Assembly (NCBI RefSeq): GCF_042453785.1
Contig: NC_091668.1
Location: 813,501 to 877,500, forward strand
DNA from: Malus domestica
Lineage: Eukaryota; Streptophyta; Magnoliopsida; Rosales; Rosaceae
Direction of reading: 5' to 3'
Length of the DNA: 64,000 nt
Under the pieces are notes generated by a model, which did not search any database, was not told the DNA's origin, and saw nothing but the letters and a program-made list of their open reading frames with translations. Below, piece after piece: positions 18,675-56,239 of the stretch; position 1 is the first letter of the stretch, and each line of letters begins with the position of its first letter. The translations under genes and the position numbers were made by a program.

Positions 18675-19212
18675 AGGGTTTGGGTTTGGAATTAGAGGTC
18701 CGATACGGCCAATAAAGACCAAAAGAAAGACGAAGGAGCGGGGAAAGTGGGTGGGGGTTGCAGATTAGATTCTTGGGGACAAGTACGCCGAGAGTGCCAA
18801 AGGAGTGCTTCGGTGCTGCGAGGTGCTTGTTTCCCTTGCATTTGGTCCGTTGGATGAAACTTACAATTTGTTGATCTGTGGCGGAGAAAACATATCCTAT
18901 GAGAGTATAAAGTTGTTGGTAATGCAATAACTAAATAATGATTGGGGATTTTTTTCCTTTCTTTTTTTTTTTGGCAAATTTTTTCTTTTCTTTTTATGGA
19001 GAGGATTTTTTCAATAACTAAATAAATAAGAAAGATTCCATTCCTTAGAAAACTAGATTATAATGAAGAAATTTGGACAAATACAAAAAGATTATAATAA
19101 AAAAAGTAATCTTACACAGGTCCTCAAATCTAAATGCCCCTATGAGATATTAGCATTTTAATATACTAGTCATGCACATCATGCTTCTTCTTTTTTTTGT
19201 ATTTTCACGTTA
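18675..19212. other. Promoter and leader side of the RING gene, then spacer
   Basis: Divergent upstream sequence of the minus-strand RING gene. Nothing beyond AT-rich tracts (18.94-19.0 kb) is recognisable before the Mutator element. Confidence 0.4.
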
Positions 19213-19257
19213 TACATTATAGGGTAAAGTACAAAAAACTACCTTAACTATTGGTCT

Positions 19258-19588
19258 TGTTGATGCACAAAACCAGAGAGGTTTTGGAACAACGTAAATC
19301 CGACCGTGAATCTGCAAGAAAGTAAATAACACAAGATGTATCGTGGTTCACCCCAATGTTTGGGCTACGTCCACACTGATATTGTGAGGGAGCTTCTGAG
19401 GGTGAGAGAGCTCTTCCCCTTGCCTAAGAATTGGCCTCTTCAAATAAGGAGGGTGAGGAGTCCTTTTATAGACTAAGGGCTCCTCACTTATTACATATTT
19501 GCCCCTTCATTTATTACATAATTACATTTGAGTCCTCCGAGTATTTATACGAGATTTAAATACGAAGGCCCTAAGTATGGTACAAACA
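19258..19588 (-). repeat. 3' LTR of element 2
   Basis: Left-hand copy, 331 bp, ending TACAAACA next to the polypurine tract. Confidence 0.9.
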
Positions 19589-19603
19589 GTAGTCCCCCAA
19601 GTC
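19589..19603 (-). other. Polypurine tract of LTR element 2
   Basis: The minus strand reads GACTTGGGGGACTAC directly before the 3' LTR, the expected position for plus-strand priming. Confidence 0.75.
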
Positions 19604-19799
19604 TTCAGCCAATAGAGTCTTTTGGCTGGAGATTTAAAATTCAGTTCATGTGTGGACCGAAATAACTAGATGTCGTCTACAACTGATACTCGATATGAGG
19701 CGGTGCTCAATCTAAAATGATGTTTAACTAGAAGTGGCACATGTTGCGAGACTGCTCAGTTTGTGGCTTATGTTGCCTTGATTAGCTCGGCTTATGGCG

Positions 19800-20065
19800 T
19801 TGAATGTGAGGGAATCCCTTTTATAGAATAAGGGCTCGCTCCTCAATACATAAGTGATGGGTTAGGAGTGATGCTCGTGGCGAGGCGGTTGCTCAGCTGG
19901 CGGTGATGCTCTCTAATGAAGGTGAAGGAGTCCTTTTTATAAAATAAGGGTTCGCTCCTCAGTACATGAATAATGGGTGCTCTCTAATGAAAGTGAGGGA
20001 GTCCTTTTTATAGAATAAGGGTTCGCTCCTCAATACATAAATAATGGGTTAAAGTCCCCCTAGTA
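19800..20065. repeat. LTR-derived direct repeats inside LTR element 2
   Basis: Three copies of a ~50-bp block, GGAGTCCTTTTTATAGAATA then AGGGTTCGCTCCTCAATACAT, at about 19808, 19922 and 19997. The block resembles the LTR segment containing the same TATAGA motif, so it is probably a rearranged LTR piece. Confidence 0.7.
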
Positions 20066-20510
20066 TTTTTCATGAGGCCTAGTTGAGGTCTAATGTATGG
20101 TACATAATGTAATCCCCCAAGTCTTCGATCAATAGAGTATGTTGGCTGGAAACTTCAAATTGAATCCATATATGGGCCGAACTGGCGGTTGTTCGGAGAC
20201 GGTATTTGTATACCCTGCACTGAAGCTTTGTAGGTGAAGTTTTGCAAGTGAAGCTTTGAAGCTGGAGCTTTTGTAAATGAAGCTTTTGAAGCTGAAGCTT
20301 TCGAAGCTAGAGCTTTGTAAATGAAGCTTTCGAAGCTGATTGACATGAGTGATGCTCATGAATGTTTATGTTGATTGACATGAGTGATGTTCATGGATGT
20401 TGACATGAGTGATGCTCATGAATGTTGACATGAATGATGTTCATGAATGTTTATGTATGATTGACATGAGTGACGCTCATGAATGTTTGACATGAGTGAT
20501 GCTCATGTAT

Positions 20511-20825
20511 AATTTTGGAGTATTGAACGTACTTTTGATCACCTGGTTGGTGATAATAGCGGCAGACTGCAGAATAATTTTGGAGCACTCGGCGTACTTT
20601 TGATCACCTGGTTGGTGATAATAGCGGCAGGCTGCCAAATAATTTTGGAGTACTGGGTGTACTTTTGATCACCTAGTTGGTGATAATAGTGGCAGGATGT
20701 CGAATAATTTTGAAGTACTGGGCGTACTTTTGATCACCTGGTTAGTGATAATAGCAGTAGACTGCCGAATAATTTTTTGTAATATTGGACGTACTTTTGA
20801 TCACCTAATTGGTGATAATAGAAGG
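20511..20825. repeat. Five tandem 65-bp units inside LTR element 2
   Basis: Units start at 20511, 20576, 20641, 20706 and 20771. Each runs AATTTTGGAGTACTGGGCGT, ACTTTTGATCACCTGGTTGG, TGATAATAGCGGCAG. Upstream are shorter arrays: AAGCTTT-based units (20220-20340) and CATGAGTGATGCTCATGAAT units (20343-20508). Confidence 0.9.
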
Positions 20826-21261
20826 CCTGGCTCTTTTGGGCATATGGGTCTTCGCCCTCCACATAACATTACAGCCCATTATTTTGGGCTTACCCTTTTT
20901 TTTTTTAATTACCCTCTGATGTGGTTATACAAATGTCTCCGAAAGATAAGAAAAATAAAACACATCATTCAAAAAATAAGAAAAGTAAATCACATCATTC
21001 TGGTGAGATGTTTATTCCTTGCTTTTGCAGTATCCCCATGTGCCTCCCTTTTGCTTTCTGCTTTTTCTCGGTTTTTTTTCTGCTTTGCTTTTGCTTTTGT
21101 TTTCCTGCTTTGCTTTTGCTTTCTCTCTGTTTTTCTTTCTTTTGGCAGATGGCAGACAAAAGAAATAATAATAGACTGATTATTAAGAAAGCTTATCTTC
21201 TTCTTCGATCTAGTGGTCGGTTTTCCATACTAGATGATGGGAGTTTTGGGAGGCAGCATCC

Positions 21262-21340
21262 ATTGAGGAAGCAAAGGCGATGGTGAGGAGAGGTGAGACT
21301 CCGGCATTGGAGAGAATGCCTAGCCACACCGTGTAGTCGC
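21262..21340 (-). pseudogene. Captured thaumatin-like protein fragment
   Basis: The minus strand encodes CDYTVWLGILSNAGVSPLLT, the start of mature thaumatin-like proteins. It closely matches the intact paralogues at 39.5 kb and 50.3 kb in this window. Similarity fades after about 27 codons. Confidence 0.85.
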
Positions 21341-21394
21341 ATCAGAGATGAACTTCACAGCCTCGCTCTCACCTTGTGCCCGGATAATTGTAGC
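21338..21394 (-). pseudogene. Captured prohibitin fragment
   Basis: The minus strand encodes ATIIRAQGESEAVKFISDA, matching the RAEGESEAAKLISDA block of prohibitins (mitochondrial inner-membrane scaffold proteins of the SPFH family). Only about 19 residues remain. It is fused directly to the HSF fragment upstream and the thaumatin-like fragment downstream; three bases (GCA on the plus strand) are shared at the latter junction. Confidence 0.75.
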
Positions 21395-21395
21395 C

Positions 21396-21640
21396 CGCCT
21401 CTTCCTTCCCTGAAACCTTTCATTTGCAAACTCTCACCTGTCCGGATCAACCTTTCTGAACCCATAAGTGTTGAGCTGGAGAATGAAGCTTGAGAAATTG
21501 TTGTCCTTGAAGTGTTTGGGCAGCAGTCCTGGAGAATTCGTACAAGTCCTAAACAATGAAGTTCTGCCAAGCATCACTCCACGAAACGATCGAATCGGTT
21601 TATGGGTCGTCCACCATCTGAAATGTCTTGTTCAAGAAAC
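21396..21640 (-). pseudogene. Captured class A heat-shock transcription factor DNA-binding domain
   Basis: The minus strand reads KTFQMVDDP, stop, [16 protein letters not shown], stop, DLYEFSR, then after a one-base shift [20 protein letters not shown] and GFRKVDPDR, stop, EFANERFQ. This is most of the HSF DNA-binding domain, including the recognition helix segment. In plant HSF genes an intron usually interrupts this domain, but none is present here, which favours capture from spliced RNA. Three stops and a frameshift make it non-coding. Confidence 0.88.
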
Positions 21641-21879
21641 AACCACAACATCTACAGTTTCTTCTTTCACCTTTAGCAATTCAGCCGCTGGGTTCAGCAG
21701 AGCGGTGGAGGAAGAGGAAGAGGATGACCTGGTCAAAGTTTATGCCTTTGGAAAAAGTCACCGCCTTTTCTTTCTTTTTTTTCAGTTCAGTCACTTATTC
21801 TTTGGCACAATAAAGCTCGTTCTTAGCTTCTTCTAGATCTTTGGCACAATCAAGCTCGTTCTGTCAACTGGGTTCTGCC

Positions 21880-22345
21880 TCATGAATGTCAACTGGGTTC
21901 TGATCATACCGTCGTCGTCACTGTCGACGCCGCCGATCATCTTCCGGCACTCGTCGATCGAACATTCGTCTCCCAAGCTCCGGAGCACTTTCGTACAATT
22001 CCTCTGCCTAAATATACCTGTTCTTATCAATGTCGTAGACGGAGAAAGTGTCTTTGAGATTTTCGAAGGCCTCTGCATAGTCGACCCCTTTAGTGTTGAA
22101 CTCTTTAAAGTTTATGAAGCTGTCTCCGTCAGAATCGACCTTGGAGATCATGCTGTTTGAGCTCCTCGTCGGAAGACGGCTGCCCCAAGCTGCTCATGAT
22201 GGCTCTAAGCTCGGAATACGAGATCTTTCCGTCGTCATTGACGTCGAATTTCTTGAAAACTTGGTTAAGCTCGGCGATCTAGGCACGCGAATGGAAGGGG
22301 GGTTCGCGAGTGGGCTGAAGCGGCGGCGGGGTGGGCAGTGATGGC
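21880..22345 (-). pseudogene. Captured calmodulin-like (EF-hand) gene fragment
   Basis: The minus strand encodes AELNQVFKKFDVNDDGKISY, a complete first EF-hand loop (D-x-N-x-D-G-x-I-x-x-x-E). After a frameshift comes VDSDGDSFINFKEF, then YDIDKNRYI with a stop inside the third loop. After another shift come RSLGDECSIDECRKMIGG and VDSDDDGMI, the fourth loop. All four hands are traceable in order without introns, so the source was mRNA-like or an intronless CML gene. At least two frameshifts and one stop disable it. Confidence 0.88.
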
Positions 22346-22764
22346 GAATATCAGCTGGTCTGAGTTAGGGTGAGTTGGAACAGAGCCGAGTCCAACCGAG
22401 TTGAAGACTTTATCTTTACAGGGAAGTGGGTCGGGGAGGACTGAGCCCAGGTTTTTAAAACCAATACAGGAAAGTGGGATCAGGGACTTCTTGGGAAAAC
22501 GTGGAAAAGTCAAGCAAATTTGTGAGGAAAAAATGGGCTCAAAGATAAAGGATGATAAAATTTCAGATTAAACCCAGAATATGTGGGTTTCTCAATGTGC
22601 ATATATATAACCTAGCTCAGACGATGGTGGAGATCTGTGAATATGTGGGTGTGTCTCTGAGTGTGGGCATTGGGTTGTTTGCAGATTCACGGTGGATATT
22701 GTGGTGAGGTCTCACGGTGGTGAGATGAAAAAAATAAAAGAGAACCGACATAGCTTTTCGTGTC

Positions 22765-22784
22765 GATTCCTACAGACGGCGCCA
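22765..22784 (-). other. Primer-binding site of LTR element 2
   Basis: The minus strand reads TGGCGCCGTCTGTAGG two bases after the 5' LTR end. TGGCGCCG starts are typical of plant Ty3-type primer sites (tRNA-Asp-like); the match to a specific tRNA beyond the first nine bases is not established. Confidence 0.75.
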
Positions 22785-22786
22785 AA

Positions 22787-23142
22787 TGTTGATGCACAAA
22801 ACAGGAGGAGTTTTGGAACAACGTAAATCCAGCCGTGAATCTACAAGAAAGTAAATAACACAAGATGTAGCGTGGTTCACCCCAATGTTTGGGCTGTGTC
22901 CACACTGATATTGTATTTCTCTGAGAGGATTGTGAGGGAGAGAGAGCTTCTGAGGGTGATAGAGCTCTTCCCCTTGCCTAAGAATTGGCATTTTCAAATG
23001 AGGAGAGTGATGAGTCATTTTATAGACTAAGGGCTCCTTACTTATTACATATTTGCCCTTTCATTTATTACATAATTACATTTGAGTCCTCAAAGTATTT
23101 ATACGAGATCTAAATACGGAGGTCCTAGGTATGGTACAAACA
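22787..23142 (-). repeat. 5' LTR of element 2
   Basis: Right-hand copy, 356 bp. It contains an extra ~25 bp GAGAGGATTGTGAGGGAGAG segment relative to the left LTR. Otherwise closely similar with scattered substitutions. Confidence 0.9.
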
Positions 23143-23269
23143 GGTCTCACGACACTTTCATACCTCATTTTTTTAAATGACAATGTCATACCTCATCTTA
23201 CGAATTTGTGCCAATGTCATACCTCCGTCAGTTTTTCTGTTAAGTGCTGACGTGGCTATATACGTGGCC

Positions 23270-24580
23270 ACTCACTAATCCAACTGGATTAAAATATAAT
23301 TAAATATATTTTTTAAAATTTAAAATTTTAAAAAAATTATATTAAATCTCTCTCTCCCTTCTCTTTCTTGCCTATATCTCTTCTTTGCATCCCTAAAACC
23401 CATTCCCACCCGTCCCCCTAACCTTCCTCCACCACCCTCTTTCTCTCGCATCTCTCTCTCCTTTCCACTGTAGTCTCCTTCCTCCCCACTTCTCTCTCTC
23501 GCCGTGCCCATAACCCCCCAAAACCCACCTGGATTTTTTCATCCGCCCTCCTTTCTCGGATCTACCTGCAAGCTCCGACCCGCTTCCCTCTCCCACTTCA
23601 TTGCCCACGACCGATCTGTTGTCATTGCTGTCTCTGAAGCTGTTAAGGAGAAAGGGAGAGATGAAGAACTGTCAAGGTCGGGGCCGACGAGGTTGTCGTC
23701 TTCCCCTAACCCAAACCCAGATCCCACCCCAAACTAGCCACTCCCATTACCACCAGGTGCCTCTCTTCTCTTCCTCCGCCGTTCTCTCTATTTCTAACCT
23801 ACAAGCATGCATAAAAAACAAAGCACCCACCAATCCTGAGAACACACCATTAACAAAAGTTCAAAAATCCATCTTCCAGTTTACCTCACTTTTCTAAGAA
23901 AATGGAACCTTCAAAATAAAAAAAAAATTCATTTCCTTTCTCCCACATTTTTCGAGCAACCAAACAAAGCAAAACCATTCAATTTTTCTCAGAAAAAAAA
24001 ACCCAATTTGTATTCACAAGAGACTTGGCAGCGGTGGTGGGCGCTGGATTGCTGCTGTGTTTTGCTGGGCTTGAAGATGGTGCTGGGCTGCGGAAGCAGA
24101 GGGAGGTGGCAGAGGCGGTCCTCAACTTTTGCAAACCCGATGACGAAGTCGATTACTTGGCAATCATGGGGCGACAAGGTTGTCAAGATTTTGCAGAAGT
24201 ATTCGAACCCATATGGGTAGTTTGGTAAGGAAGGGGATGAGATCAATGGAGGGAGTGGGTACCCGGAGAAAGGTAAGGTTGGTGTGCCAGAGATCGGCGA
24301 CTTCGATGTCGTCAGTTAGAATGGGGAAGAAGGTGATGGTTATTGGTGGATGGAGTCGACGATGAATAGGAGAGAAGGGAAGGTGAGTGCGAGTTGCAGA
24401 TGAGAGAAAGGTGGGTGGGGTTACAGATGAGAGAAAGGAGAAATGAGGTCGATGGGGAATAAATGGGGTGGATCGGATTTGGGGAAGACATGAGGGGGAA
24501 AGGGGGTGGGTCCCCATGTAAAAAAAATTAAATGATTTTAATTTTTTAGTTTTTAATATTTAATTAACTTTTTAATATTT
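23270..24580. other. GC-richer interior of the Mutator-like element, possible captured gene pieces
   Basis: Between the terminal repeats lie stretches with exon-like base composition and short open frames. Examples are plus-strand HDRSVVIAVSEAVKEKGRDE near 23.6 kb and NFCKPDDEVDYLAIMGRQ near 24.15 kb. I do not recognise either. Pack-MULEs often carry host gene fragments, so this is a candidate, not a call. Confidence 0.35.
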
Positions 24581-24796
24581 AATTAATTTATTTAAGCCAC
24601 GTCACTATTTAAGTAAAGCCACGTCAACACTTAACAGAGAAACTAACAAAAAAATTGACGGAGGTATGACATTGGCACAAATTCGTAAGATGAGATATGA
24701 CATTGTCATTTTAAAAAGATGAGGTATGAAAGTGTCGTGAGACCAATAATTGAGGTAATTTTTTGTACTTTACCCTACATTATAATAAATGTTTTT

Positions 24797-38422: not shown

Positions 38423-39704
38423 TCAATAAGGCAAGGAGATAAGGTAGACAATGGCAGCCGAAGCAACCAACGTATAGTGAAGAGCAGCAGAAGAGATGGT
38501 CTTGGACGAGTCTCCGGTGTAAAAGTTTGGTAACCATGACGGATTACTTTTTCCTGCCACCGTCGGCAGCTCCCCGGCCGTCGTCCCACTCCCACCTCGG
38601 GAACCTGACCCGGTATTTGTTGTGCTTGTTGATGTATCTGTTGCCGATTTTTGACTGCATGTATATATACACAACATATATAAAGTTAAATTAAAGTGAC
38701 GAAAACGTAATTATAATTTATAAAGAGTCAAATTACTCATTGTTTTTAGATTAAATTATTTCATTAAAGTTTATATAACAAAAAAAAGATAAAATTAATG
38801 AAAAGAATGAAGAAAAATTAAAGATTTTTGCTCTGAGTGAATTGTGATAATCCATATGATCCTTACCTTGTAGTAGAAGGGCAGAAGGTTATGGTGTAAT
38901 CAGCTCCACTACATGTAAACGTACTCGTGGCATCGTCGTACGCGTAGCTATACGATCTCGGACATGCCGACTTAAACATCTCCGAGTACACCGACGGCTT
39001 GCACGTGTCCGGCGTAGCAAACGCGCCGTTGCAGCAGTATTCCGGGCTCCCAAACGCCTCGCACGCACTCTTACACGCCGCGCCGTTCCCGAACTGCAAC
39101 TCAGCGGGGCACCGTTGGTTCAAGTCGGTGGCGCACCCGGTCGACAAACAATTACCGGAACCGCCGCTAGGTTCCACCATCATGGGCAAATTGTATCCGT
39201 CAACTAAGCTGACATCATAGAAGTCCTGGTTGTCAGAGCCGCCAATTGTGAACTCAGCCAGAGTAGCGGGCGGGGTTGCACCTGCACCATTGCATTCCAT
39301 CTGGTTGGAGCCACAGTCGGCGGTGGCACAGGTGCCAGCCCCGGTTGTGGGGTCAAAGTTGCAGCCTGTTCGACCCCAGAACCGGCCGGACCAGTTAGGT
39401 GGAGATTGAAAGGAACGTGAGCCGCCCGGTTGGAGCTCAAGGCCGGTGCTGTCTAAACTGGTAGTCCCCGCATTGGATAGAATTCCCGGCCATACTGTGT
39501 AGTCGCACTTGTTCATCATTGTAAATGTAGCTCCTGATATTCCTGCAACATATTTGGTTTATATTTATTTCAAATTTGAATGATAATTTTTTAGGAAATT
39601 AATTAACTGCAGAACTGATTTGTTTACATACCTTTGCAGCAAATTGCAAACAAAATTAGAGTGATGTGAAGAGGAGAATAATGGAAAAAGGCCATCAGAT
39701 CCAT
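38423..39704 (-). CDS. Thaumatin-like protein 1 (PR-5 family), 326 aa, 3 exons, GPI-type tail
   Basis: Exons (minus): 39632-39704, 38867-39542, 38423-38654, joined by GT-AG introns with phases 1 and 2. Exon 1 is a signal peptide (MDLMAFFHYSPLHITLILFA). Exon 2 holds the entire thaumatin domain with 16 cysteines, GRFWGRTGC, and FYDVSLVDGYNLPM, which carries part of the acidic REDDD cleft set. Exon 3 adds a Ser/Thr/Gly-rich linker and a hydrophobic end (ALHYTLVASAAIVYLISLPY), typical of a GPI-anchor signal. Most pathogenesis-related thaumatins lack such a tail, so this is a surface-anchored type. Likely role: apoplastic or cell-wall glucan binding. A second gene of the same layout lies about 9 kb upstream in transcription sense. 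Confidence 0.93.
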
Positions 39705-48399: not shown

Positions 48400-50556
48400 T
48401 TAGAACAAGAGCTGCCATAGCAGAGCGATGACGCCGACCGCACTCATTACACGTGGTTCGAACGTGTGAATGGACGCGGCCGAAAATGAATCGTACGAGC
48501 CGCCATCGTACTCCATTGTGTTGTTTATCTCCTGCGGCGAGGTTGAGGTGGTTGTCGACGGCGGTGTAGTTGTCGGCTGCGGCTGTGTGTTGTCCTGTGA
48601 CGCTTTCTGGCTGTAAAATTGCACAACATTCAGTCAGTACAATTACCGTTACAAAATTAAATACCATGAAAAATGTAAATTATGGACCGTTGCAAAAATA
48701 ATGTGATGAGTTTTGGAGTGTGTGCTGAGTTTTAATTAGTTAAAGAAAGGGAATCGGATCTCTAGATTCCGAAAAGAGCATTGGGATCTGCGTTGTGCTC
48801 CGGCATCGGAGACCGCATGTGGAATGCTAAATGGAGTGAGGATCTCGCCGGATTCTTTTTGTGAAGATCTCCGAGATCCTTAAATTACATCCGTTTATCG
48901 TACATTGTGCAGTCAGAAATTATTGTAAATTTTTTTATTTAAAATTGAATATAAACAGTACCTAACGAAAATTGACCACACTATATATAATGAACAAATG
49001 TGATTGAAAGATCCTCAGGATCTTCATAAAAAGAATTCGACGAGGATCCTCTCTCTTCTAAATGGACCAGCCTGGAATTCTATAAGTGCACCACTCTACC
49101 ACTTTATTTGAAAAGACCGTTTTGACCTTCATTTGTTTAATCCATTTGGTGGCTGGCACACATTCATAAATTATTAATGCTACGTAAACTCTTTGTAGAT
49201 TTTCTGTCACCTTATGTTTTTAGCACAATATTTTAAAATATTGATATTGAATTCGACGTTAAAATGTGAAGTGACAGAGTTCTTATACCATCTTGTGAGG
49301 TGACGAACAAATTTTAAGATTAGTTTTGACTTTTACAATTGAATTGCCACACTATCATGCTAAAAAAAAAATCAAGAGAAAGACTTCCATGAAACATGCA
49401 TGCGACGATGACAATATATTTAGCTAATCAGTTAAAATGCATGATAATGTGTAATTGAAAGCGTCGGCGGGAGAGCCGTCGTCTGTTAGCGCCCATCACT
49501 GACAATGACTAGTGACCTTTCGGATATTCCGTTGAGTTAAACCGACTTAACGGAAAAAACCTAGCACCAGGAAGTAAATGAGTGAAAAAATTTCACCCCT
49601 AACGGCTTCATACGAAGCTAATCGGGAGGACGAAACTACCCTTACAACGGTCGAAAAAGGAGGGAAGCAGAATGTAAAGGATAATTCCGGAAATTTACCT
49701 GGTACTGGGCGATGGGCAGAAGATGATGGTGTAGTCGCCGCCGGCGCATGTGAATGTGCTGGTCTTGTCGTCGTAAGCGTAACTGTATGCCTGCGGGCAC
49801 GCGCTCTTGAAAATCTGAGAGTATTGAGAGGGCTTGCAAGTGTCGGGTGAACCGTAGGCTCCGCTGCAACAGTACTGCGGCTGGCCGAACGCCTCGCACG
49901 CGCTCTTGCACGCGACTCCTGCAGCTCCGTCGGCACCGGTGACCTTGAGGTCGGAAGGGCAGATGGTGTTGAGGTCGGTAACGCAGCCGGTCTTAGTACA
50001 GTTGGTCCCAGTGCCGCCATTGGGGACCACCAGCATAGGGAGGTTGTACCCGTCCACGAGGCTGACGTCGAAGAAATCAAGCCCGCCGGAGCCGTCGAGT
50101 GTGAATTCAGCGAGAGTGGCGGGCGGGGCGGCTCCGTTGCCTGAGCATTCTAATTTTCCTGAGCCACAGTCCGCGGTGAGGCAGGAGAATTTGCCGGCGG
50201 AGTCGTGGGAGCAGAGGGTTCGGCCCCAGAAGCGGCCGCCCCACGAGGCTGGGGCGGAGATTGTTTTCGTTTCGCCCTTTGCGAGGGCGAAGCCGGTGGT
50301 CGGAAGAGGTGAGATCCCGGCGTTGGTGAGAATGCCCGGCCACACTGTGTAGTCGCACTTGTTCTCCATTGTGAATGTCCTTGAAACAACACCTGCATGT
50401 TAATAAAACAGAGCAAAATTAGTACACAAATTAACAAAATTGGACCCAGAATTGTAAGAAAGCTGTGGAATTTAATTTGGATTAGAGATTATTACCAGAT
50501 GTTTGTAGCCCCATGATGGTTAACAGAGAAATTAACAATGATGGTAATCGAGCCAT
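48400..50556 (-). CDS. Thaumatin-like protein 2 (PR-5 family), 321 aa, 3 exons, GPI-type tail
   Basis: Exons (minus): 50496-50556, 49699-50392, 48400-48610, with the same intron positions and phases as the paralogue at 38.4 kb, although the second intron here is about 1.1 kb. Signal peptide MARLPSLLISLLTIMGLQTS. The thaumatin domain has 16 cysteines, GRFWGRTLC, LAEFTL and FFDVSLVDGYNLPM (R, E and D residues of the acidic cleft). Exon 3 gives a Thr/Ser/Pro-rich spacer and a hydrophobic end (VMSAVGVIALLWQLLF), a likely GPI signal. Probable extracellular, membrane-anchored defence or wall protein. The long second intron contains a MITE (48.84 kb). Confidence 0.93.
48836..49058. mobile_element. 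MITE in intron 2 of thaumatin-like gene 2
   Basis: Left GAGGATCTCGCCGGATTCTT and inverted right GAGGATCCTCGTCGAATTCTT are the arms, continuing with TTTTGTGAAGATC on both sides. About 220 bp; shares its core with 41870-42080. Confidence 0.75.
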
Positions 50557-55336: not shown

Positions 55337-55816
55337 ACTGATGATATCGTAAATTGCCTCCAAGATTGTTAGAGATACGCTACCACAAGATTCAATCAAT
55401 ACAAATACCAGCGTACAACTGATGATATCGTAAATTGCCTCCAAGATTGTTAGAGATACGCTACCACAAGATTCAATCAATACAAATACCAGCGTACAAC
55501 TGATGATATCGTAAATTGCCTCCAAGATTGTTAGAGATACGCTACCACAAGATTCAATCAATACAAATACCAGCGTACAACTGATGATATCGTAAATTGC
55601 CTCCAAGATTGTTAGAGATACGCTACCACAAGATTCAATCAATACAAATACCAGCGTACAACTGATGATATCGTAAATTGCCTCCAAGATTGTTAGAGAT
55701 ACGCTACCACAAGATTCAATCAATACAAATACCAGCGTACAACTGATGATATCGTAAATTGCCTCCAAGATTGTTAGAGATACGCTACCACAAGATTCAA
55801 TCAATACAAATACCAG
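55337..55816 (-). repeat. Minisatellite: six near-identical 81-bp units, open in one frame
   Basis: Units start at 55337, 55418, 55499, 55580, 55661 and 55742 and are virtually identical, implying very recent expansion. Because 81 is a multiple of three, the minus strand stays open and would encode a 27-residue repeat (LIESCGSVSLTILEAIYDII...). The frame runs from about 55880 to 55211 but has no ATG at its start, so a protein is not supported. Confidence 0.95.
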
Positions 55817-56239
55817 CTTCCACCGGTTGCTACAATTTTGGAGAACATTTCTCCCAGCTGATTGATCAAACGTGCTTTACAGCAACGTCACCATTTGCGT
55901 GGATGCCCCTTCACATCAAATAATAAATGAAATGAAAAAGCAAGCCAATTTGATCACTCAAAACAACGTTATTGTGTCTGAAGCGTGACAAGTCAGTTGT
56001 TGTCATTAGCTTGCATTCTATAGTGTGTGTATCTATCTGTCCTTCTGGCCGAGTAATATGTTTTCGTCCTATTTTCTATCCCCTTCCCCTCCCCTCCTGG
56101 TCCCATTCGATGGATCTTTGGCCAGACAGCCACATGGTGCGCGGGAGTTTGCACGGAATAACTCTTCCTAAGCCAGGTCCTATACGATGTAATCTAATTG
56201 AGAGAACACAGGGCAAATGGACCGACTTTTAAAAATAAA

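Follow-up and report, generated by a model that had tools for sequence, protein, structure and literature searches.

Pieces of five host genes within one LTR retrotransposon of apple, from a family in which strings of host exons seem to be normal

The capture of host genes by LTR retrotransposons has so far been argued mostly from single cases. The locus described here, in apple (Malus domestica), raises the question of how pieces of several host genes came to lie in series, and in one orientation, between the ends of a single element. The window, meaning the whole stretch of 64,000 nucleotides that was analyzed, is C8:813501-877500 of a genome of 651 Mb in 19 contigs. Positions without a contig name are those of the window.

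The element in the window is a non-autonomous LTR retrotransposon of 3,885 bp (19258-23142, minus strand) with the following parts.

19253-19257: target-site duplication GGTCT, left copy
19258-19588, minus strand: 3' LTR, 331 bp
19589-19602, minus strand: purine-rich stretch adjoining the 3' LTR, possible polypurine tract
19589-21194, minus strand: 3' module, in large part common to the family; includes tandem repeats (65-bp and others)
22355-22579, minus strand: module common to L009, L054 (C13), L055 (C1) and two C16 loci
22653-22786, minus strand: leader common to other family members
22769-22786, minus strand: TTTGGCGCCGTCTGTAGG, resembling a primer-binding site and adjoining the 5' LTR
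22787-23142, minus strand: 5' LTR in the element's sense, 356 bp, TG...CA
23143-23147: target-site duplication GGTCT, right copy

Two LTRs, TG...CA ends, and a 5-bp duplication mark the window copy as an LTR retrotransposon, and the LTR boundaries with a perfect duplication claimed by the initial annotation were recovered. The LTRs are 92.1% identical (331 aligned sites; K2P 0.084), which, at substitution rates of 1.3e-8 and 7e-9, gives an age of about 3-6 million years. Directly after the 5' LTR comes TTTGGCGCC; the TTTGGCGCCGTCTGTAGG stretch at this end is taken to be the primer-binding site, and TTTGG(C/T)GCC occupies that position in all 12 elements whose LTR pairs were measured. The purine-rich stretch at the other end may function as the polypurine tract. 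Among the other 11 elements with a measured LTR pair, the target-site duplications match in L011, L028, L029, and L030 and are imperfect in the rest, and the LTR ends of L013 and L027 are off by one or two bases. The measured members of the family are 3.4-4.8 kb long. Ten open frames of the window element gave only weak, sub-cut-off Pfam matches, none of them a retroelement domain, and no pol was detected in the element. The hallmark of retrozymes is a hammerhead ribozyme in the LTR; an Rfam search of 19000-23400 (E up to 1) returned two matches under the gathering score, neither a hammerhead, and a retrozyme identity is unsupported. The cargo had no match in a plasmid collection, and viral and GTDB collections contained no exact match to a 25-base LTR pattern.

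The surroundings hold other repeats. An inverted-repeat element (19213-24784) encloses the LTR element, with arms at 19213-19257 and 24740-24784 (45 bp, 87%) and further matching arms at 23143-23242 and 24644-24744. Elsewhere in the window, at 55337-55817, there is a tandem array with an 81-bp period and copies that are 100% identical.

The cargo between the 5' and 3' modules, listed in the element's sense, consists of five host-gene pieces and a weak candidate for a sixth.

22580-22665, minus strand: weak candidate for a sixth host piece, 86 bp, matching one C15 locus at 94%
21900-22346, minus strand: CML25 (calmodulin-like) piece, native gene on C16; 2 stops, 3 frameshifts
21397-21881, minus strand: HSFA2-like piece, native gene on C2; short duplications near its 5' end
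21335-21402, minus strand: prohibitin piece, 92.6% over 68 bp to native genes on C17 and C9
21271-21341, minus strand: thaumatin-like piece (apparent exon 2), native gene on C15, 84.5% over 71 bp
21195-21290, minus strand: fifth host piece, gene pair C3/C11; exons inferred from GT...AG

All five pieces lie in the sense orientation. The four that the initial annotation had named are real, each with a native DNA match in the genome, whereas its count of four donors was too low, the fifth piece having been missed. Some of the limits also had to be redrawn. The calmodulin-like identity of the first piece is borne out by an EF-hand found by Pfam in a single open frame (2e-9) and by a match to the C16 gene of 88.6% over 458 bp, but not all four EF-hands are complete; placed against the presumed position of the EF-hand 4 loop, the piece stops inside that hand. 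A heat-shock-factor DNA-binding domain was likewise found (Pfam HSF_DNA-bind, 6e-9, in a single open frame), in a piece that extends beyond the domain, from about 21881 to 21397, and matches the C2 gene at 90.7%, 93.3%, and 95.8%. This piece has a 143-bp deletion at 21638/21639 that is absent from a copy on C12, L009. A separate coiled-coil gene between the CML piece and the HSF domain was considered and rejected; the stretch is the HSF N-terminus together with short duplications.

The two shortest pieces are the hardest to name from their peptides. Neither the prohibitin nor the thaumatin-like (TLP) piece has a Pfam match. Against PDB, the prohibitin piece reached a best E of 0.04 with prohibitin or HflC in all six matches, a shorter query gave nine matches (seven prohibitin or HflC and two designed proteins), and the reversed control gave two unrelated ones; the TLP piece gave none. 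After these weak profile results, both identities are settled by the native DNA matches. The matching stretch of the C17 prohibitin gene is an intact open frame, with a peptide nearly identical to that of the captured piece. The TLP piece proved to be an apparent second exon and not the start of the gene, as had been thought, while its thaumatin-like identity held. Two intact thaumatin-like frames occur in the window itself, at 38863-39558 and 49695-50399 on the minus strand, and a further match lies just beyond it at C8:883915, and these may form a small TLP cluster. As donors, the two intact genes (39.5 and 50.4 kb) were weighed and set aside, the piece being closer to P0122 (20 of 24 residues match, against 18 of 24 for the 50.4-kb gene); at the DNA level, a TLP gene inside the window matches the piece at 81.7% over 71 bp.

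The fifth piece matches exon 1 of the C3 gene at 55 of 56 bp and then the start of exon 2 of the C11 gene at 30 of 37 bp, and over 64 bp it is 91% identical to C11. Exon 2 was absent from the 3 kb of C3 that were examined and was found in C11 alone (81% over 37 bp). The 86-bp piece near the leader may be a sixth host capture; no match to it was found in the C12 copy. The native loci are on C16/C13 for CML25, C2/C15 for the HSF gene, C17/C9 for prohibitin, C15 for the TLP gene, and C3/C11 for the fifth gene, and the four pairs among them are presumably homeologous.

Introns show what kind of template was copied. Alignment of the HSF piece with its native gene, in agreement with what had been proposed for it, shows the clean loss of a 512-bp intron, the exons being joined exactly. 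The intron of the C11 gene (about 100 bp, GT...AG) is missing from the fifth piece. Two other members of the family agree: exon-by-exon genome matches show a 14-3-3 piece in L033 without one native gap of about 240 bp and a V-ATPase piece in L046 without two native gaps of about 1.7 and 0.8 kb. Introns are thus absent in five of five tested (one in HSF, one in the C11 gene, one in 14-3-3, and two in V-ATPase), the splice sites having been read for HSF and the C11 gene and the other introns being inferred from the exon-by-exon matches. The CML, prohibitin, and TLP pieces cross no native intron and therefore give no proof of an RNA template. The element as a whole carries host exons, intron-free and in sense between LTRs, as in Bs1-like LTR gene transduction.

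The joins between the pieces are also informative. The initial annotation had noted a 3-base overlap at one junction. When the native genes are compared, the shared bases are instead AGAGGC (6 nt) at the HSF/prohibitin join and TGCGACT (7 nt) at the prohibitin/TLP join; the chance of 6 or more and of 7 or more matching bases at random joins is 0.0013 and 0.0004, respectively. The CML/HSF join is untidy and full of short duplications, which speaks against one clean switch at that point.

Has the chimera moved since it was formed? The initial annotation had suggested searching for further copies, and L009 on C12 carries the whole chimera, fifth piece included, at 91-95% identity to the window copy. 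It has its own LTR pair (93.5% identical) with an imperfect duplication, GAATT/AAATT. The captured form has therefore moved, as a second whole chimera stands between LTRs on another contig. Counted at sites where the two native CML genes agree, the window copy and L009 have 10 identical derived substitutions in common, with 19 and 15 private changes, respectively, and two sites changed differently.

Other elements carry parts of the combination with other neighbors. L010 (C16) has prohibitin and TLP with the same join as the window copy, and L016 has 804 bp of prohibitin. L011 and L012 have CML and HSF pieces with a gap in between, and L011 also carries an AAA-lid domain. With one difference in 383 LTR sites and TACTT at either side, L011 points to recent movement of the lineage. 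L013 has an HSF piece with an FtsJ match and a marginal NAM match that is below the Pfam cut-off. L015 has a CML25 match spanning 737 bp with few derived changes in common with the window copy, and to judge from these it may be a separate capture; self-comparison found no LTR pair in L010 or L015, and their limits are provisional. In L023, FLZ and papain-propeptide pieces lie upstream of TLP and the fifth gene, and the TLP/fifth-gene join differs slightly from that of the window copy, so one extra event is needed. The 5' module of L054 and L055 agrees with that of L009 as far as the CML border and diverges beyond it, as if the same point were reused for new cargo. A STICHEL-like match in the cargo of relatives is weak. 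L013 and L014 (C13, about 65 kb apart) have near-identical matches to the window element and equal LTR divergence, perhaps as a segmental duplication or an assembly duplicate; L014, as a near copy of L013, was left out of the comparison of partial combinations.

Such cargo has also entered public protein sets. P0001 and P0002 are annotated as hypothetical proteins of Malus, and P0001 (Malus domestica) matches L023 at 93-98% in three pieces. P0002, in which EF-hands are joined to an HSF domain, looks like the cargo of another such element.

The wider family was then sampled. First-look searches gave 4,114 LTR candidates and 1,886 leader candidates (which are not copy numbers), and the best 40 were scored in each. 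Twenty-five elements were picked blind to their cargo, namely five whose two LTRs both ranked among the top 40 LTR matches and the leader matches ranked 2-21, a sample biased toward relatives of the window's leader and LTR. Their common leader has a median of 134 bp and their middle a median of 1,395 bp within the 2-kb stretch that was read. In 23 of the 25, about 80% or more (rounded) of the middle was unmatched in 31 other elements by plus-strand blastn at E 1e-5. L041 was discarded as a case of normal cargo, since another LTR begins to intrude about 510 bp from its leader and its score is inflated, which leaves 22 of 24.

The middles are rich in host coding sequence. At E <= 1e-3, 60 sense frames from the 20 leader elements, covering about 1.4 kb of each, gave 16 kinds of host domain (WD40 counted once), not necessarily one per element. 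They are 14-3-3 (1e-68), DUF630, WD40-type repeats, P450, LRR, and PPIP5K2_N, together with thaumatin (5e-34), nodulin-like, ANTH, C2, V-ATPase, DUF3511, WD40, DnaJ, MIP, GRAM, and RRM; the PPIP5K2_N and DnaJ matches fall under Pfam's own cut-offs, that of RRM is marginal, and C2 and GRAM may be one gene. No retroelement domain was found by Pfam in these frames, and 60 antisense frames of the same elements gave 0 Pfam families at E 1e-3. Among the five elements with LTR pairs, HD-ZIP_N and Homeodomain occur in L027 and Tubulin in L029, all in sense, while L026, L028, and L030 have no Pfam domain; nine antisense frames of L026, L027, and L029 reached a best E of 0.0011, with nothing above the Pfam cut-off. 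Single frames searched individually likewise had no Pfam domain in 6 of 10 cases. Given both results, some of the cargo may have a source other than host mRNA. Nine of the 25 elements were mapped individually (L027, L029, L033, L034, L044, L046, L047, L048, and L049), and the open frames of L032, L037, L040, L045, and L050 are taken to resemble P450, LRR, WD40, C2, and WD40, respectively. L048 (C15:43551851-43553851) has a much longer thaumatin-like piece, corresponding to P0122 residues 50-210 at 55%, and probably acquired this TLP sequence independently. At C12:17256775-17257680 there is a second copy (88%) of the L033 leader and 14-3-3 cargo, and this chimera may also have transposed. Strings of host exons, it seems, are normal in this LTR family.

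The best explanation, and one that can be advanced with considerable confidence, is that in the course of reverse transcription the template was switched serially to spliced host mRNAs. The switching put forward in the initial annotation has gained support from the lost HSF and C11 introns, the two microhomology joins, the second copy, and the sub-combinations. The family would supply the ends only, that is, the LTRs, the leader with its primer site, and the 3' repeat module. A reverse transcriptase from a trans-acting partner would copy the element's RNA, and host mRNAs would share the partner's particle by co-packaging. The minus-strand cDNA would jump at matches of 6-7 nt from the 3' part of the element RNA to a spliced host mRNA and then from one mRNA to the next, and a return to the leader of the element RNA would leave a string of sense host pieces between constant ends. 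Such chimeras could later be re-transposed, trimmed, and recombined with one another. The co-packaging, the partner, and the course of the jumps (their direction and order) are inferred. Upstream of TLP and the fifth gene lies prohibitin in one arrangement and papain in another; this agrees with a 3' part that was kept and 5' pieces that are newer, as expected if the jumps happen during 3'-to-5' copying.

Several other origins must be weighed against template switching. The pieces might have been taken up as DNA, by genomic copying in gap repair or by insertion of a DNA transposon in the manner of Pack-MULEs or Helitrons. Gene pieces are often taken up by Helitrons and other DNA transposons, according to the available part of one survey (PMC2774510), and the possible sixth piece, from C15, contains a run of TATATATA and may come from genomic DNA and not from a transcript. 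Against this stand the five absent introns and the restriction of Pfam domains to sense frames. For HSF, the fifth gene, 14-3-3, and V-ATPase, capture at the DNA level can be regarded as largely refuted, and as an account of the cargo it is quite improbable. Chance similarity or a false assembly join might be suspected from the prohibitin and TLP pieces, which are short and have no Pfam match, but the native DNA matches of 84-98% exclude chance. The second copy on C12 makes an assembly join an unlikely source of the chimera, and public apple protein models contain related fusions (P0001 and P0002). Taken together, chance or misassembly has a vanishingly small probability.

It could also be supposed that a chimeric or read-through host transcript of the five genes existed beforehand and was captured once, which would suit the joins that the C8 and C12 copies have in common. 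However, the closest native matches are on different chromosomes, subsets of the pieces occur with other neighbors in other elements, and the two-donor loci among the best matches listed (C12 at 9.3 and 25.4 Mb, C16 at 32.09 Mb, and C17 at 25.97 Mb) all carry the family LTR or leader, though the C16 locus, L010, showed no LTR pair; a ready-made transcript is very improbable indeed. The alternative of most substance is that the mosaic arose mostly by recombination among elements that had each captured a single gene, with few jumps from mRNA to mRNA. It overlaps with the best explanation and does not exclude it. In its favor, prohibitin occurs over 804 bp in L016 and beside TLP in L010, and in L023 other genes precede TLP and the fifth gene. 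Yet no single-gene element with the HSF or CML breakpoints of the window copy was found among the loci examined, apart from the HSF start of L013, and the first capture of each gene still requires a jump to mRNA. As the main source of the mosaic, recombination between elements is a possibility to be taken seriously, though on balance doubtful; as a contribution to a mosaic begun by template switching, it is probable.

Beyond this locus, serial template switching leads to a broader reading, toward which the evidence tips slightly: a large LTR family that traps spliced host transcripts in general, with only the ends needed for copying kept. If this is true, the interior of an element is whatever string of host mRNAs was copied through jumps of the reverse transcriptase, different multi-gene sense chimeras would be present in hundreds of copies, and the family would have been active at some time in about the last 0.1-0.2 million years (from L011, at commonly used substitution rates).

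One family in one genome now offers many captures, along with the donors they came from, their breakpoints, incomplete forms, and one young copy. Stepwise gene capture by LTR elements becomes directly traceable through the cargo of related elements, and it becomes possible to measure how often capture happens, in what order the jumps occur, and what part microhomology plays. There is also a warning for annotation, as what P0001 records as an apple protein is the cargo of L023. It may be conjectured that sense pieces of working genes within repeats feed small RNAs against their donors.

How does this family compare with known systems? Pack-MULEs and Helitrons join gene pieces between transposon ends but are DNA elements. 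The captures of Pack-MULEs include introns as well as exons (PMC4717578, in the portion available); a Pack-MULE identity was rejected here, the cargo being bounded by LTRs and the tested introns absent. Host gene pieces inside LTR elements are a likeness to the surveys of grasses, of which the accessible text reports 425 such elements with at least 189 captures in maize (PMC2774510) and further examples in rice and sorghum (PMC3726574). The maize survey differs in that, under its conditions and in the part available, it had no element with more than one standard nuclear gene (PMC2774510). Transduced frames are described as occurring in one or a few copies, at least in the excerpted account (PMC7264820). 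Chimeras of Veju and BARE are explained by switching between co-packaged RNAs, but the added sequence is another retroelement or DNA of unknown source (PMC13317346, as far as its available text goes). In the literature on apple, Malus, Rosaceae, and multi-gene capture, surveyed by title and start of abstract with subscription papers mostly outside its scope, no description of the present family was found.

The closest likenesses are with TRIMs and Bs1. According to the available part of one report, gene-carrying TRIMs are small non-autonomous LTR elements with 5-bp duplications and exons only, without introns; they number 30 elements in seven subfamilies of the 289 searched, two of them carry more than two genes, and GmaRetroS15 of soybean carries three host genes (PMC4717578). 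They are exceptions among TRIMs in that account, whereas cargo is present in most members examined here, and at 1,172-1,449 bp against 3.4-4.8 kb they leave the apple elements outside the TRIM size range (PMC4717578). The phenomenon in apple is ordinary in its class of mechanism and unusual in its extent, with five donors in one element. Bs1 of maize is likewise an LTR element with pieces of several host genes, three acquired in three transductions, and template switching is treated as a route in the portion of the source available (PMC13317346). The difference is one of scale: three donors there and five here, and here a family in which each sampled member has its own cargo.
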